From NCBI GenBank assembly GCA_023458215.1, contig JAEXAJ010000205.1, positions 1 through 30,178 on the forward strand: a stretch of DNA of 30,178 nucleotides, in the 5' to 3' direction. Positions 1,953 through 13,384 of this stretch are shown here, one piece after another. Each line of letters starts with the position of its first letter. Position 1 is the first letter of the stretch. The notes beneath the pieces were generated by a model, which did not search any database, was not told the origin of the DNA, and saw nothing but the letters and a program-made list of their open reading frames with translations. This DNA comes from Bacteroidota bacterium. Its GTDB lineage: Bacteria; Bacteroidota; Bacteroidia; Bacteroidales; Bacteroidaceae. A program made the translations under genes and the position numbers.

Positions 1953-2765
1953 TCAACTCTTAAAATTCCGATAGGGTTTATCTAAATCTAAATAGTGGAA
2001 ATTATGCTGCCTCTGTTCATTACCTTTGGGGATGGTCATATAATCACCATACTTTTGAGCTAGATAGATTTGATAGTTTTCCACACCCCAGACTTCTTCA
2101 CCTTCAAATAGAATCGGTTTTGGACTGCCTAAAGTACTTTTTTGCATAATACCTTTCATGCCATCATCATAGTCACAAACAAGTTCGCTGCTGTCGAAAT
2201 CATGTTTTTTTAGTATCTTACGAATACTCTTTTGTACCGCATCCATAGTAAAAAGGGATCGGCATAACAATGGAATCCACGAACTTGGTCCCTTTCCGTG
2301 TTTATAAGGATCGCGATGGATGAAGTATAGAACTCTCTTGTAGAATTCATATCTAGCGAAATGCCAGCGTTGCGCCATCCTGCCCGCAGGTACGCCATCT
2401 ATTGGAAATACATCTAAATAGATACCTCCTAGATACTTTAAATGCATTCTTTCAATTAAAGTGGTATTTGCATCTTGTATTTTGGCAAAAGGTAAGGGGT
2501 ATTCTGAATCATTTTCAGCGCATACTGCTTCATAGTTTTCCGGCAACCATTCTTTGGAATGAGACATTAAGAGGTCGTAGTCCCTTCTTGGCATGCCAAT
2601 GTCCAGATCGTCGTCCCAAGGTATAAAACCCTTGTGTCGCACAGCACCAAGCATAGTTCCTGCCATAATATAGTACCGCAAATTATGTTCTTTACAGACC
2701 TTATCTACTGCAAGTAAGATTCTTAGGATACGGAGTTGTAGAGGGCGTATGTCATAAGTAGCCAT
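1953..2765 (-). CDS. LicD-family phosphotransferase (phosphocholine/phospho-alcohol transferase)
   Basis: LicD proteins transfer a phospho-alcohol, classically phosphocholine from CDP-choline, onto a cell-surface glycan. They belong to the nucleotidyltransferase fold. The 270-residue protein shows the defining block at residues 35-60: AGTMLGAVRHKGFIPW followed by DDDLDIGMPRRDY, with the paired acidic metal ligands. It has no signal peptide or membrane span, so it acts in the cytoplasm on a lipid-linked or nucleotide-linked glycan. It is the last of three genes transcribed leftward, 10 bp after the nucleotidyltransferase that probably makes its CDP-activated donor. The donor group (choline, ethanolamine, ribitol, glycerol or an amino-alcohol) cannot be read from the sequence. 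The family is certain; the exact acceptor and donor are not. Confidence 0.9.
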   Translation of the reverse strand: MATYDIRPLQLRILRILLAVDKVCKEHNLRYYIMAGTMLGAVRHKGFIPWDDDLDIGMPRRDYDLLMSHSKEWLPENYEAVCAENDSEYPLPFAKIQDANTTLIERMHLKYLGGIYLDVFPIDGVPAGRMAQRWHFARYEFYKRVLYFIHRDPYKHGKGPSSWIPLLCRSLFTMDAVQKSIRKILKKHDFDSSELVCDYDDGMKGIMQKSTLGSPKPILFEGEEVWGVENYQIYLAQKYGDYMTIPKGNEQRQHNFHYLDLDKPYRNFKS

Positions 2766-2775
2766 AAAATGATTG

Positions 2776-3507
2776 TTAATAGAGGTTTTGAGGAATACGT
2801 TTCTGTGCCTGATTAAAATCTTCTACGGTATCCAGCTCGGCAGAGAAGAACTCAGTCGTATCTATAACGTGAAAGTGGTAGCCTTGTGGTATCAGTCTTT
2901 CAAAAGCCCGTTCGTAGAAGATATTATCCAGTTTCTCTACGTTAATCATAGTCTCCAGTTCTTTGAATAAGGCTTCAGTGTACTGGGAAGACATTTTTTC
3001 GATACCTATAGATTCGCCAATGGCATCACTAATGGAACATACTTTGCTAATTTCTATTACTTTAGAGGCAGAATCAGCAATTACTTTTATCTCTTCGGTT
3101 CCCAACTCATGGCGGTTGAGCGCTAATGCATTGCTTCTGTCAGAGTGGAGTAATTTATCGACAATAAGAGGATCGAACAAGATGTCGCTGTCCAATAGTA
3201 AAACTTCTTCTCCATCAGCATATAGACGCGTGAGCCATAAAGAGTAGATATTATTGGTCGACTCATATTTTTCATTGTAAATGAAGGTAATATTCAGCGA
3301 TGGATATTTAGCGTGCAAAAAGTCTACAATCTGTTGCTGGCGATAGCCGGTAACAACTATGAACTCCTTGAGTCCGTTTTCTATCAAGGCGTCGAATGTG
3401 CGTTCCAACAAACTGCGTTCTCCTATTTTGAGAAGGCATTTAGGAGTAGTATCGGTAAGTGGACGCAGGCGGGAAGCTATCCCCGCCGCTAAGATAACTG
3501 CTTTCAT
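2776..3507 (-). CDS. LicC-like nucleotidyltransferase (NTP transferase)
   Basis: This is a 243-residue single-domain nucleotidyltransferase. The N-terminal signature AAGIASRLRPLTDTTPKCLL (residues 7-26) holds the NTP-binding loop and catalytic Lys. A metal-binding Asp lies in LLLDSDILFDP near residue 105, and the C-terminal segment ELDTVEDFNQ has the second metal Asp, as in LicC, the CTP:phosphocholine cytidylyltransferase. Sugar-1-phosphate nucleotidyltransferases share the fold, but a neighbouring LicD and a short length favour a phospho-alcohol substrate and a CDP product; that is inference. The start overlaps the end of the upstream aminotransferase by 4 bp (ATGA-type), so the two are translationally coupled. 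Confidence 0.88.
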   Translation of the reverse strand: MKAVILAAGIASRLRPLTDTTPKCLLKIGERSLLERTFDALIENGLKEFIVVTGYRQQQIVDFLHAKYPSLNITFIYNEKYESTNNIYSLWLTRLYADGEEVLLLDSDILFDPLIVDKLLHSDRSNALALNRHELGTEEIKVIADSASKVIEISKVCSISDAIGESIGIEKMSSQYTEALFKELETMINVEKLDNIFYERAFERLIPQGYHFHVIDTTEFFSAELDTVEDFNQAQKRIPQNLY

Positions 3508-4556
3508 CTTTTTGCGATTTCTTTAATGGTATCTATCACAAAGCGGTTGTGTTCCGGACGGCCGAAGGTAATACGCAAATGCATATTTATGTCAGGTTCG
3601 TTCATGAACTTTATTTTATAATGGTGCTGGGCGAAAGCTTCTTGTAGGGCTTCTTTTAGTTCTGTCGGATACTTAATCAGGATAAAGTTGGCTACAGACT
3701 CGTAGACTTTAAAGCCGGGTAATGAACCAATTTCTTTCTCGTAGCATGCACGGTCTTCATTCATTTGCTTTGCAATGTTACGGTAATGCCCGTCCGATTT
3801 AAGAGCGGCAATGGCAATATCTTCCGATATACGGTTGTAGCCTAGATACTTGTTACTGTATTTGCAGAACGGTTGTAGCTCTTTACTTATAAAGCCAAAA
3901 CCCATGCGGAGACCGGGGAGACCGTAGAATTTGGATAACGTACGTGAAATGATTATGTTAGGATATTGCTCCGTCAATTCTTTTATATAAGTTGTATCTG
4001 TTGAAACAAATGAGGCATAGGCCTCGTCAACCAAGACAATGGTGGTGGTTGGAACGAAAGACAATAAATGTTTTAACTCATCAGGTGTGAGTCCATTGCC
4101 GGTAGGATTATTGGGGGAAGCTAGGAGTAGAACTTTAGGGTTCTCTTTGTGCAGCATCTCTTTCAGTACATTGAAATCATATTTGAATGTATTTCCTTCT
4201 TCATAAAGAGGATATTGCAACGTATGTCCGTTTACCTCGTCGGCAATAGATTTATAATACCACCATGAGAATTTGGGGATCAGTATCGTTTTGTTACCGT
4301 CTTCCTCGGTCAGGAAATAGTGTACGGCATTTTTAAGAATATCTTCTCCACCATATCCAAGTAGCACTTGTTGTTCGTCTATATTGTATAATTCAGAGAG
4401 AAATACCGATAAAATGCTTTTTTTCCCTTCATCGTATATACGAGTATAAAAACATAGCTTGTTTATGTCGAAGTTTTTGAAAGCTTCTATTACTTCTTCG
4501 GAAGGTGCATAGTTAAATTCATTCCGGTCTAAAAAAATAGTCTTTGTTGACTCCAT
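3504..4556 (-). CDS. HisC/CobD-like PLP-dependent aminotransferase or decarboxylase
   Basis: This fold-type I PLP enzyme has 350 residues. The motifs are ASPNNPTGNG at 146-155, DEAY at 177-180, the Schiff-base Lys209 in SRTLSKF, Arg217 in YGLPGLRMGF, and a C-terminal LRITFGRPEHN that in HisC binds the substrate carboxylate and phosphate region. It would be labelled histidinol-phosphate aminotransferase by similarity. It is not in a his operon, however. It heads an operon with a LicC-like cytidylyltransferase and a LicD-like transferase. CobD, the threonine-phosphate decarboxylase that makes aminopropanol phosphate, and related serine-phosphate decarboxylases have the same architecture, so a role in making an amino-alcohol phosphate for CDP activation is plausible. 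Transamination of a keto-alcohol phosphate is the alternative. Fold and cofactor are certain; the reaction is not. Confidence 0.87.
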   Translation of the reverse strand: MESTKTIFLDRNEFNYAPSEEVIEAFKNFDINKLCFYTRIYDEGKKSILSVFLSELYNIDEQQVLLGYGGEDILKNAVHYFLTEEDGNKTILIPKFSWWYYKSIADEVNGHTLQYPLYEEGNTFKYDFNVLKEMLHKENPKVLLLASPNNPTGNGLTPDELKHLLSFVPTTTIVLVDEAYASFVSTDTTYIKELTEQYPNIIISRTLSKFYGLPGLRMGFGFISKELQPFCKYSNKYLGYNRISEDIAIAALKSDGHYRNIAKQMNEDRACYEKEIGSLPGFKVYESVANFILIKYPTELKEALQEAFAQHHYKIKFMNEPDINMHLRITFGRPEHNRFVIDTIKEIAKR

Positions 4557-12319: not shown

Positions 12320-13384
12320 ATGAAGAAGAAATATTTGTTTTTTGTATCGGTAGCATATTCATATCCTATTCTACGACCCTTGCAAGATGAAATTTTGCGT
12401 AGAGGTGACGAAGTAGCGTGGTTCGTAGAACAAGGTTGCCCGATATTGCTGGAAAAGAATGAAAGGTGGTTGCGGTCTGTACAAGCAGTTATGGAATACA
12501 ATCCCATTGCTGTTTTTGCACCGGGCAATTATATCTACGACTTCTTTCCGGGGGTGAAAGTCTGCCTTTTCCATGGATATCCCATCAATAAACGTGGAGA
12601 CGAGAAAGATGATCACTTCTCTGTTCGTGGTTGGTTTGATATGTATTGTACTCAAGGGGAGACTAGTACATTGACATTTAAAGAGCTTGAAAGAAAATAT
12701 GGTTTCTTCAAGGTTTATGAAACAGGATGGTGCAAAGCAGATGCATTTGTGAAAGAACGTGCTTCGTCTTCTCATAACGCCCGCCCGGTGATATTGTACT
12801 CTACAACATTTACAAAGACTATTACTTCAGCTCCTTATCTATTCGAAACCATTAAACGTTTGGCAAAAGAAAAAGAATGGGATTGGATTATTTCGTTTCA
12901 TCCGAAGTTTGCAAATTCTGATATACTCAAGAAGTATAAAGAATTGGCAAAAACTTGTTCAAATGTAGTTTTTCATGAGAGCGGCTTGGTAGATGCCAAA
13001 TTATTAAATCGTGCCGATGTGTTGTTATCTGATGCATCATCTGTCATTGTGGAGTATATGATGTTAGATAAGCCAGTAGTGACTTATTGTAATACGACGC
13101 CTGGCAGTCACTTACTGAATGTGACAGATGTAAATGAAGTGGAGTCTGCTTTAGAAAAAGCGCTTTCTCGTCCTGTGGCATTGATGGAGCAGATTCGTGC
13201 TTATGTTGATAAGCATGAGTCGCATTTGGATGGTGGTTCTTCTTCCCGAGTATTGGATGCTGTGAATAATTACATCTGGTATTATCAGGGAAAGACAAGA
13301 ACAAAACCGTGGAATTTGGTACGGAAGTTTAAACTGAGATGGCGGGTTGGGTATCCACTGATGGCTACACTACGATTGTGGTAA
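12320..13384 (+). CDS. CDP-glycerol glycerophosphotransferase-like protein (TagF/TagB family)
   Basis: This 354-residue GT-B-fold protein resembles the poly(glycerophosphate) glycerophosphotransferases. An FHG motif is at 84-86. The C-terminal half has SFHPKF at 192-197 (His194) and the strongly conserved LLSDASSVIVEYMMLDKP at 235-252, the place where TagF has its ligand-binding Asp-Ser-Ser-x5-E/D block. Teichoic-acid relatives move glycerol or ribitol phosphate from a CDP donor to a lipid-linked glycan on the cytoplasmic face. No membrane span is seen. In a Gram-negative LPS region it may transfer a polyol phosphate or act as a GT-B sugar transferase of unknown specificity. It is first in a seven-gene plus-strand operon behind a hairpin leader. 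Confidence 0.82.
   Translation: MKKKYLFFVSVAYSYPILRPLQDEILRRGDEVAWFVEQGCPILLEKNERWLRSVQAVMEYNPIAVFAPGNYIYDFFPGVKVCLFHGYPINKRGDEKDDHFSVRGWFDMYCTQGETSTLTFKELERKYGFFKVYETGWCKADAFVKERASSSHNARPVILYSTTFTKTITSAPYLFETIKRLAKEKEWDWIISFHPKFANSDILKKYKELAKTCSNVVFHESGLVDAKLLNRADVLLSDASSVIVEYMMLDKPVVTYCNTTPGSHLLNVTDVNEVESALEKALSRPVALMEQIRAYVDKHESHLDGGSSSRVLDAVNNYIWYYQGKTRTKPWNLVRKFKLRWRVGYPLMATLRLW

Follow-up and report, generated by a model that had tools for sequence, protein, structure and literature searches.

A Bacteroidota operon that may make, activate and attach an amino-alcohol phosphate to a glycan

The operon and the described systems it resembles

The licABCD phosphocholine pathway combines a LicC cytidylyltransferase and a LicD-family transferase in one operon. 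Here we analyse a three-gene operon in a 30,178-nucleotide stretch of DNA from a Bacteroidota bacterium of the Bacteroidaceae (contig JAEXAJ010000205.1, assembly GCA_023458215.1; the whole stretch is called the window below). It has genes of the same two kinds, but differs from licABCD in carrying a pyridoxal phosphate (PLP) enzyme gene in front and, likely, in its head group. Genome-wide tests were made in relatives carrying the operon, in place of the window's own genome. Choline kinase (licA; PF01633) had no match in 16 of 17 carrier genomes, with a single match in the other (G189), and none was present among the listed open reading frames (ORFs) of the window. The locus thus failed the test for a lic operon, in keeping with an earlier reading of this DNA from its letters alone (the sequence-only reading), which had seen no choline kinase.

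A LicC-type nucleotidyltransferase is also joined to a PLP enzyme in the PntC-2-aminoethylphosphonate transaminase fusion of Treponema denticola, with LicD-like phosphotransferases or glycosyltransferases nearby (PMC6697681). In contrast to the operon, that system is a phosphonate route needing phosphoenolpyruvate mutase, and the deposited entry for its PLP domain (6pd1) gives aminotransferase class V, whereas the operon enzyme matches PF00155, class I and II. We rejected a phosphonate route for the operon: phosphoenolpyruvate mutase (TIGR02320, E 1e-20) matched in 0 of 17 carrier genomes, in a search in which 5 of 14 control genomes matched, none over the cut-off, so that it had no true positive control. 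In the capsule cluster of Campylobacter jejuni, PLP enzymes supply comparable compounds, Cj1436 converting serine phosphate to ethanolamine phosphate (PMC12409886) and Cj1437 transaminating dihydroxyacetone phosphate (DHAP) to serinol phosphate (PMC12409886, PMC12096443). As described in those reports, however, the amine is attached through an ATP-dependent amide bond with removal of the phosphate, whereas the operon would be expected to form a phosphodiester from a cytidine diphosphate (CDP)-activated compound.

CobD and SMUL_1544 share the fold of the operon PLP enzyme and turn a phospho-amino acid into an amino-alcohol phosphate, the reaction that we favour for it, but the operon enzyme lies in a separate clade, far under the CobD cut-off, and no cobamide context was seen. 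The alternative inositol-lipid cluster of Bacteroidetes also makes a phospho-alcohol, cytidylylates it and transfers it by a CDP-alcohol phosphotransferase, but its supply enzyme is reported as an inositol-phosphate synthase, not a PLP enzyme (PMC9246714). CpgD of Caulobacter, a cytidylyltransferase from the same broad group, yields a CDP product that a ceramide head group requires; it differs in using phosphoglycerate, and the portion of that paper drawn on here makes no mention of a PLP supply enzyme (PMC12275187). An open-licence literature search returned no paper describing the operon by title or abstract, which does not imply its absence from print. The operon probably works like LicC/LicD tagging, with built-in substrate supply as what is new.

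The promoter and the genes, in order of transcription, are as follows.

4647-4616, minus strand: Bacteroides-type promoter TTTG-N20-TACCTTTG, a motif match about 60 bp upstream of the first ATG
4556-3504, minus strand: PLP enzyme gene, 350 aa, proposed synthase of a phospho-amino-alcohol (more probably an O-phosphoserine decarboxylase, possibly a DHAP transaminase)
3504-3507, minus strand: 4-bp overlap of the PLP gene and the LicC-like gene, with the same -4 spacing in many relatives
3507-2776, minus strand: LicC-like nucleotidyltransferase gene, 243 aa, proposed CTP:phospho-amino-alcohol cytidylyltransferase
2766-2775, minus strand: 10-bp gap between the LicC-like gene and the LicD gene, from ORF coordinates
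2765-1953, minus strand: LicD-family gene, 270 aa, proposed phosphotransferase to glycan

The ORF coordinates confirm the three minus-strand genes, the overlap and the gap that had been described, and the two-box promoter claimed for the operon corresponds to the TTTG-N20-TACCTTTG match, which we take to be a Bacteroides -33/-7 type motif. Because this pattern has 2 matches in the window against 0.96 expected in a shuffled window, its rarity is no argument; the argument for it is its position.

We propose that a small phospho-amino-alcohol would be formed in the cytoplasm by the PLP enzyme; its likeliest identity is ethanolamine phosphate, from the decarboxylation of O-phospho-L-serine. The LicC-like enzyme, judging by its kinship to LicC and PntC, would couple ethanolamine phosphate to cytidine triphosphate (CTP) to give CDP-ethanolamine. 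LicD would then transfer phospho-ethanolamine to a sugar of the lipopolysaccharide (LPS) core or another surface glycan, as its family and its surroundings suggest. We consider the general logic of making, cytidylylating and transferring an amino-alcohol, whichever it is, to be quite probable. The more specific version, a self-supplied glycan-tagging operon with ethanolamine phosphate from phosphoserine as its head group, we believe and doubt in equal measure.

The LicC-like and LicD enzymes and their neighbourhoods

The LicC-like protein matches PF00483 (51.1 bits) and PF12804 (46.3 bits), both over their Pfam gathering scores. A profile of 20 family members scored 107 bits against LicC (1jyk) and 101.9 against PntC (6pd1), with the next hits, inositol- and sugar-phosphate enzymes, at 58.2 bits and below. 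LicC 1jyk was also first of 11 distinct solved sequences at E up to 1e-10, and an N-terminal motif is shared. On the strength of this kinship to LicC and PntC, the enzyme should make a CDP-linked small phospho-alcohol, and its earlier description as LicC-like holds. The LicD protein matches PF04991 at 147.8 bits against a gathering score of 22.6 and carries the GFIPWDDD motif, so that both marks of LicD membership were found and the earlier assignment is upheld; the HKGFIPWDDDLDI motif is conserved, with its core invariant in 16 aligned members.

We then compared 67 window-type loci (L001-L061, L071-L074 and L087-L088; near relatives included, fragment L062 left out). A LicC-like gene, in some cases cut by a contig end, follows within 1.2 kb of the PLP gene in 67/67. 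The third gene varies: LicD in 36 loci, a PF04464-like gene (CDP-glycerol-phosphotransferase-like) in 18, neither in 6 and a contig edge in 7. Pfam confirmed PF04464 in all 5 of the 18 loci that were tested. LicD lies at a distance of over 1 kb in L009 and L029, is only 30-32% identical in L009 and L031, and is found upstream instead in L011, L012 and L047. The sequence-only reading had called for a search for conserved three-gene neighbourhoods, and the PLP-to-LicC order in every locus, with LicD third in 36, answers it.

Between the PLP and LicC-like genes of L014 (3569-4292) and L020 (11029-11777) there is a small gene and a PIN-domain gene (by Pfam for L020), together resembling a toxin-antitoxin pair; at this position the gaps in L022 and L023 are about as large. 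Natural PLP-LicC fusions were looked for and rejected. Both domains are present in 20 of 120 listed proteins, but the five inspected (P0007, P0012, P0016, P0026 and P0077) differ at their junctions; because these junctions differ in otherwise near-identical metagenome proteins, we took the both-domain proteins as frameshift joins and not as evidence.

To characterize the surroundings, we counted matches to the window's own proteins around 34 window-type loci with at least 20 kb of sequence, in 20 random regions of three carrier genomes and around 14 lipid-type (PF01066-type) loci. Glycosyltransferase matches were found in 20/34, 2/20 and 0/14, respectively, and LPS-kinase-like matches in 19/34, 0/20 and 0/14, with the caveat that queries from the window may under-detect in the more distant lipid-type genomes. 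In the window, HldE-like and GmhA-like genes (Pfam: PfkB plus cytidylyltransferase-like, and SIS domains), a Kdo-kinase-like gene and several glycosyltransferase-like genes lie near the operon. These glycan and LPS surroundings, set against the controls, argue for the attachment to a glycan that had been predicted. The same LPS-type region holds a sulfatase-fold protein (PF00884; 10257-12065, minus strand) and a PF04464 protein (12320-13384, plus strand), which may be further head-group transferases. PADLOC returned no match.

A second pairing of such genes occurs in L063 (2276-5652, Phocaeicola sartorii) and L064 (196-4095, Xylanibacter rarus), where one protein joins a LicC-like domain to a CobD-like PLP domain and the neighbours are an octopine-dehydrogenase-like gene (by Pfam for L063) and a LicD-like gene. 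The L063 protein scores 171.2 bits on the CobD profile and 148.7 on hisC. By tree, the PLP domain of both lies in a different branch from the operon enzyme, so the fused versions that the earlier reading proposed to look for do exist beside LicD, but from another PLP lineage. This family, named by NCBI only as PLP enzyme, is very large, all 8000 candidates scored having reached E 1e-40. LicC/LicD-type genes thus appear to have joined such a PLP enzyme twice, separately, which supports the make-activate-transfer logic.

An older, probably lipid-linked branch

A relative of the PLP enzyme at E 1e-60 or better was found in 12 of 295 Bacteroidales genomes, and a more distant probe, from L082, matched 17 of 395 Bacteroidota genomes. 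Across the 21 neighbourhoods of this distant set (L082-L086 and L121-L136), a PF01066-like gene (CDP-alcohol phosphotransferase) is present in 20, all but L127, and a LicC-like gene in 16, the exceptions being L085 and L125-L128. Pfam confirmed PF01066 in 6/6 tested (L082, L084, L085, L125, L129 and L136). Because LicD, PF04464 and PF01066 enzymes are exchanged behind the same first two enzymes, we suggest that this pair delivers a CDP-activated small alcohol. In L126 and L128 the PLP gene lies a few bases behind genes for glyceraldehyde-3-phosphate dehydrogenase and phosphoglycerate kinase (gap-pgk; by Pfam for L126) and ahead of the PF01066-like gene, with no LicC-like gene in the stretch examined.

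Ethanolamine phosphoceramide ranks among the main sphingolipids of Bacteroides and is plentiful in vesicles of B. thetaiotaomicron; a BLAST search for its synthase with the Drosophila enzyme is reported to have given no candidate (PMC8791184), and phosphoethanolamine (PE)-dihydroceramide was made by all Bacteroides species tested in another report (PMC10191378). Serine palmitoyltransferase is over the cut-off in 5/5 Bacteroidales genomes of the PF01066 type and adjoins the set in 3, which suggests that the PF01066-type sets of sphingolipid-making Bacteroidales are a ceramide head-group pathway. In the latter three loci (L082:5969-12307, L083:6319-12652 and L086:5787-12008) the gene row is serine palmitoyltransferase, two GNAT-family genes, the PLP enzyme, the PF01066 transferase and the LicC-like gene, a candidate ceramide phosphoethanolamine operon; an inositol-lipid-like cluster, resembling the one described in PMC9246714, lies directly downstream of each. 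A general link to sphingolipids was rejected, as only these five genomes fit it and serine palmitoyltransferase was over the cut-off in 0 of 16 other PF01066-type carriers.

Across the phylum, serine palmitoyltransferase was over the cut-off in at least 17 of 395 genomes, a lower bound because the top 4 candidates per genome were scored and a partial match in G001 was missed. That match, in B. xylanisolvens XB1A (C1:612499-613119), covers half the length of the enzyme (187-393 of 395), and the gene may be cut or frameshifted in that assembly.

The PLP enzyme and the choice of head group

The PLP enzyme matches PF00155 over its gathering score (144.9 bits). Its best NCBIfam score is on the HisC profile TIGR01141, at 215.5 bits against a cut-off of 276.55, and it reaches 121.7 bits on the CobD profile TIGR01140, far below the cut-off of 290.55. 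Five further clade members score 199.0 to 242.9 bits on the HisC profile, on which the HisC of genome G004 scores 344; a local CobD-like protein, L097, likewise falls under the CobD cut-off, at 269.3 bits. By these curated cut-offs the enzyme is neither HisC nor CobD, and the label HisC/CobD-like given to it earlier stands as a resemblance but not as a membership. In our tree it falls in a distinct, well-supported clade of Bacteroidota (46 sampled rows), where the window protein groups with Bacteroides rows; it is 83-85% identical to the proteins of five Bacteroides isolates (L001, L002 and L004-L006), and the DNA therefore most probably comes from a Bacteroides.

All 46 rows share Arg11, Lys46, Ser47, Trp98-Trp99-Tyr100-Tyr101 and Lys316 in the alignment, the last at a position (equivalent to HisC Arg322) where 8 of 10 HisC rows have Arg. 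The HisC profile match begins at profile position 21, and the N-terminal arm of HisC, which has a substrate-binding role, is without a counterpart in the PLP enzyme. In a fold comparison with the predicted model (predicted local distance difference test score, pLDDT, 90.2), CobD 1lc5 trailed the best HisC by at most 2 Z units, and by sequence the nearest solved relatives include SMUL_1544, whose title calls it a decarboxylase. Position 180 is Phe in Salmonella CobD, SMUL_1544 and three local CobD-like proteins. We had considered Tyr or Phe here as a rule separating transaminases from decarboxylases, but rejected it as not clean, the CobD-like 3fkd of P. gingivalis having Tyr.

The sequence-only reading had held that its proposal would fall if the PLP enzyme were the only HisC of the genome. 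Among relatives, 9 of 11 carrier genomes have a separate HisC over the cut-off and in 2 no HisC passes it, so the concern is largely, if not wholly, answered there. Hoylesella marshii (G006) encodes a HisC-like protein (L100) that is below the HisC cut-off, at 238.9 bits, and has His in place of the catalytic Lys; it would be a degenerate HisC or a different enzyme. That the operon enzyme is an ordinary second histidinol-phosphate aminotransferase, placed by chance beside LicC/LicD genes, is highly improbable. Several sources do give the family that name, in line with its best NCBIfam score, but it falls below the cut-off, lacks the N-terminal arm, has invariant residues of its own and is linked to a LicC-like gene in 67/67 loci. 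Hardly less improbable is a scheme built on sugars, with activation of a sugar-1-phosphate by the LicC-like enzyme, amination of a sugar precursor by the PLP enzyme and addition of a sugar phosphate by LicD. For the LicC-like enzyme, several sugar-nucleotidyltransferase families do give low scores of similar size, but its profile is nearest LicC and PntC, so the use of only sugar-1-phosphates, which the earlier reading had named as fatal to its proposal, is not what profile kinship predicts. The PF01066 and PF04464 partners also speak against such a scheme, as do the PLP relatives by score and fold, which act on small phosphates and not on nucleotide sugars.

Within the make-activate-transfer logic, the question is which head group is made. 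We place ethanolamine phosphate first, on account of the sphingolipid-linked relatives and the Cj1436 precedent. Several observations weigh against it: HisC scores and folds rank above those of decarboxylases, Tyr180 is kept in 46/46 clade rows as in HisC, six window-type loci have a third gene other than LicD or PF04464, the 16 PF01066-type carriers outside Bacteroidales have no serine palmitoyltransferase over the cut-off, and phosphatidylserine decarboxylase is present in 27/27 carriers examined (and 392/395 phylum genomes). Given that last count, phosphatidylethanolamine synthesis does not call for a further ethanolamine route, and we rejected the idea that the PF01066-type sets replace the usual route, which predicted carriers without phosphatidylserine decarboxylase. 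The main rival, unlikely but serious, casts the PLP enzyme as a transaminase acting on DHAP: the product would be serinol phosphate, which the LicC-like enzyme would convert to CDP-serinol, and LicD or PF04464 would then pass on phospho-serinol, a counterpart of glycerol phosphate that bears an amine. The HisC substrate is a DHAP-like ketone phosphate, and the enzyme is nearer HisC than CobD in score and fold and keeps Tyr180; phosphatidylethanolamine presumably has another source in each of the 27 carriers examined; a CDP-glycerol-phosphotransferase-like partner is found in 18/67 loci; the PLP gene stands directly behind gap-pgk in L126 and L128; and Cj1437 offers a precedent. On the other side, the sphingolipid-linked relatives would need a serinol ceramide, and we know of none; Lys316 in 46/46 rows, in place of the HisC Arg, may also count against it. 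Another phospho-amino-alcohol, such as aminopropanol phosphate from phosphothreonine, or amination of another ketone or aldehyde phosphate, with the rest unchanged, is less probable again. CobD, a fold relative, acts on phosphothreonine according to structure titles, and sequence does not reveal the range of substrates; against this, the CobD score is far under its cut-off, although L097 is under it too.

The claim that the PLP enzyme supplies the phospho-alcohol internally therefore stands in part: the operon has what look like its own supply enzyme, activating enzyme and phosphotransferase, but its PLP reaction may be either decarboxylation or transamination, and sequence and fold lean to HisC. 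At the level of sequence, what we describe is an operon, its conservation, a distinct PLP clade, an exchange of the last enzyme and a glycan context for the LicD and PF04464 types. With slightly more doubt than belief, we propose further that the PLP enzyme stands at the head of a new family of synthases that make phospho-amino-alcohols de novo, and that it forms with its LicC-like partner a portable CDP-amino-alcohol module of Bacteroidota. This module would have served first for membrane lipids through PF01066, as the missing ceramide phosphoethanolamine route in sphingolipid-making Bacteroidales, and later have been re-aimed at LPS and other glycans through LicD or PF04464, requiring no import or kinase for choline or ethanolamine.

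If the ethanolamine phosphate proposal is true, gut commensals would have a kinase-free route to amine-bearing phosphate groups on LPS or other glycans, groups that would alter surface charge and host recognition. The proposal also singles out specific genes as candidates for ceramide phosphoethanolamine synthesis, at least for the five genomes of Bacteroidales with a PF01066-type set and serine palmitoyltransferase, and a PLP family now called HisC by several sources would gain a function.

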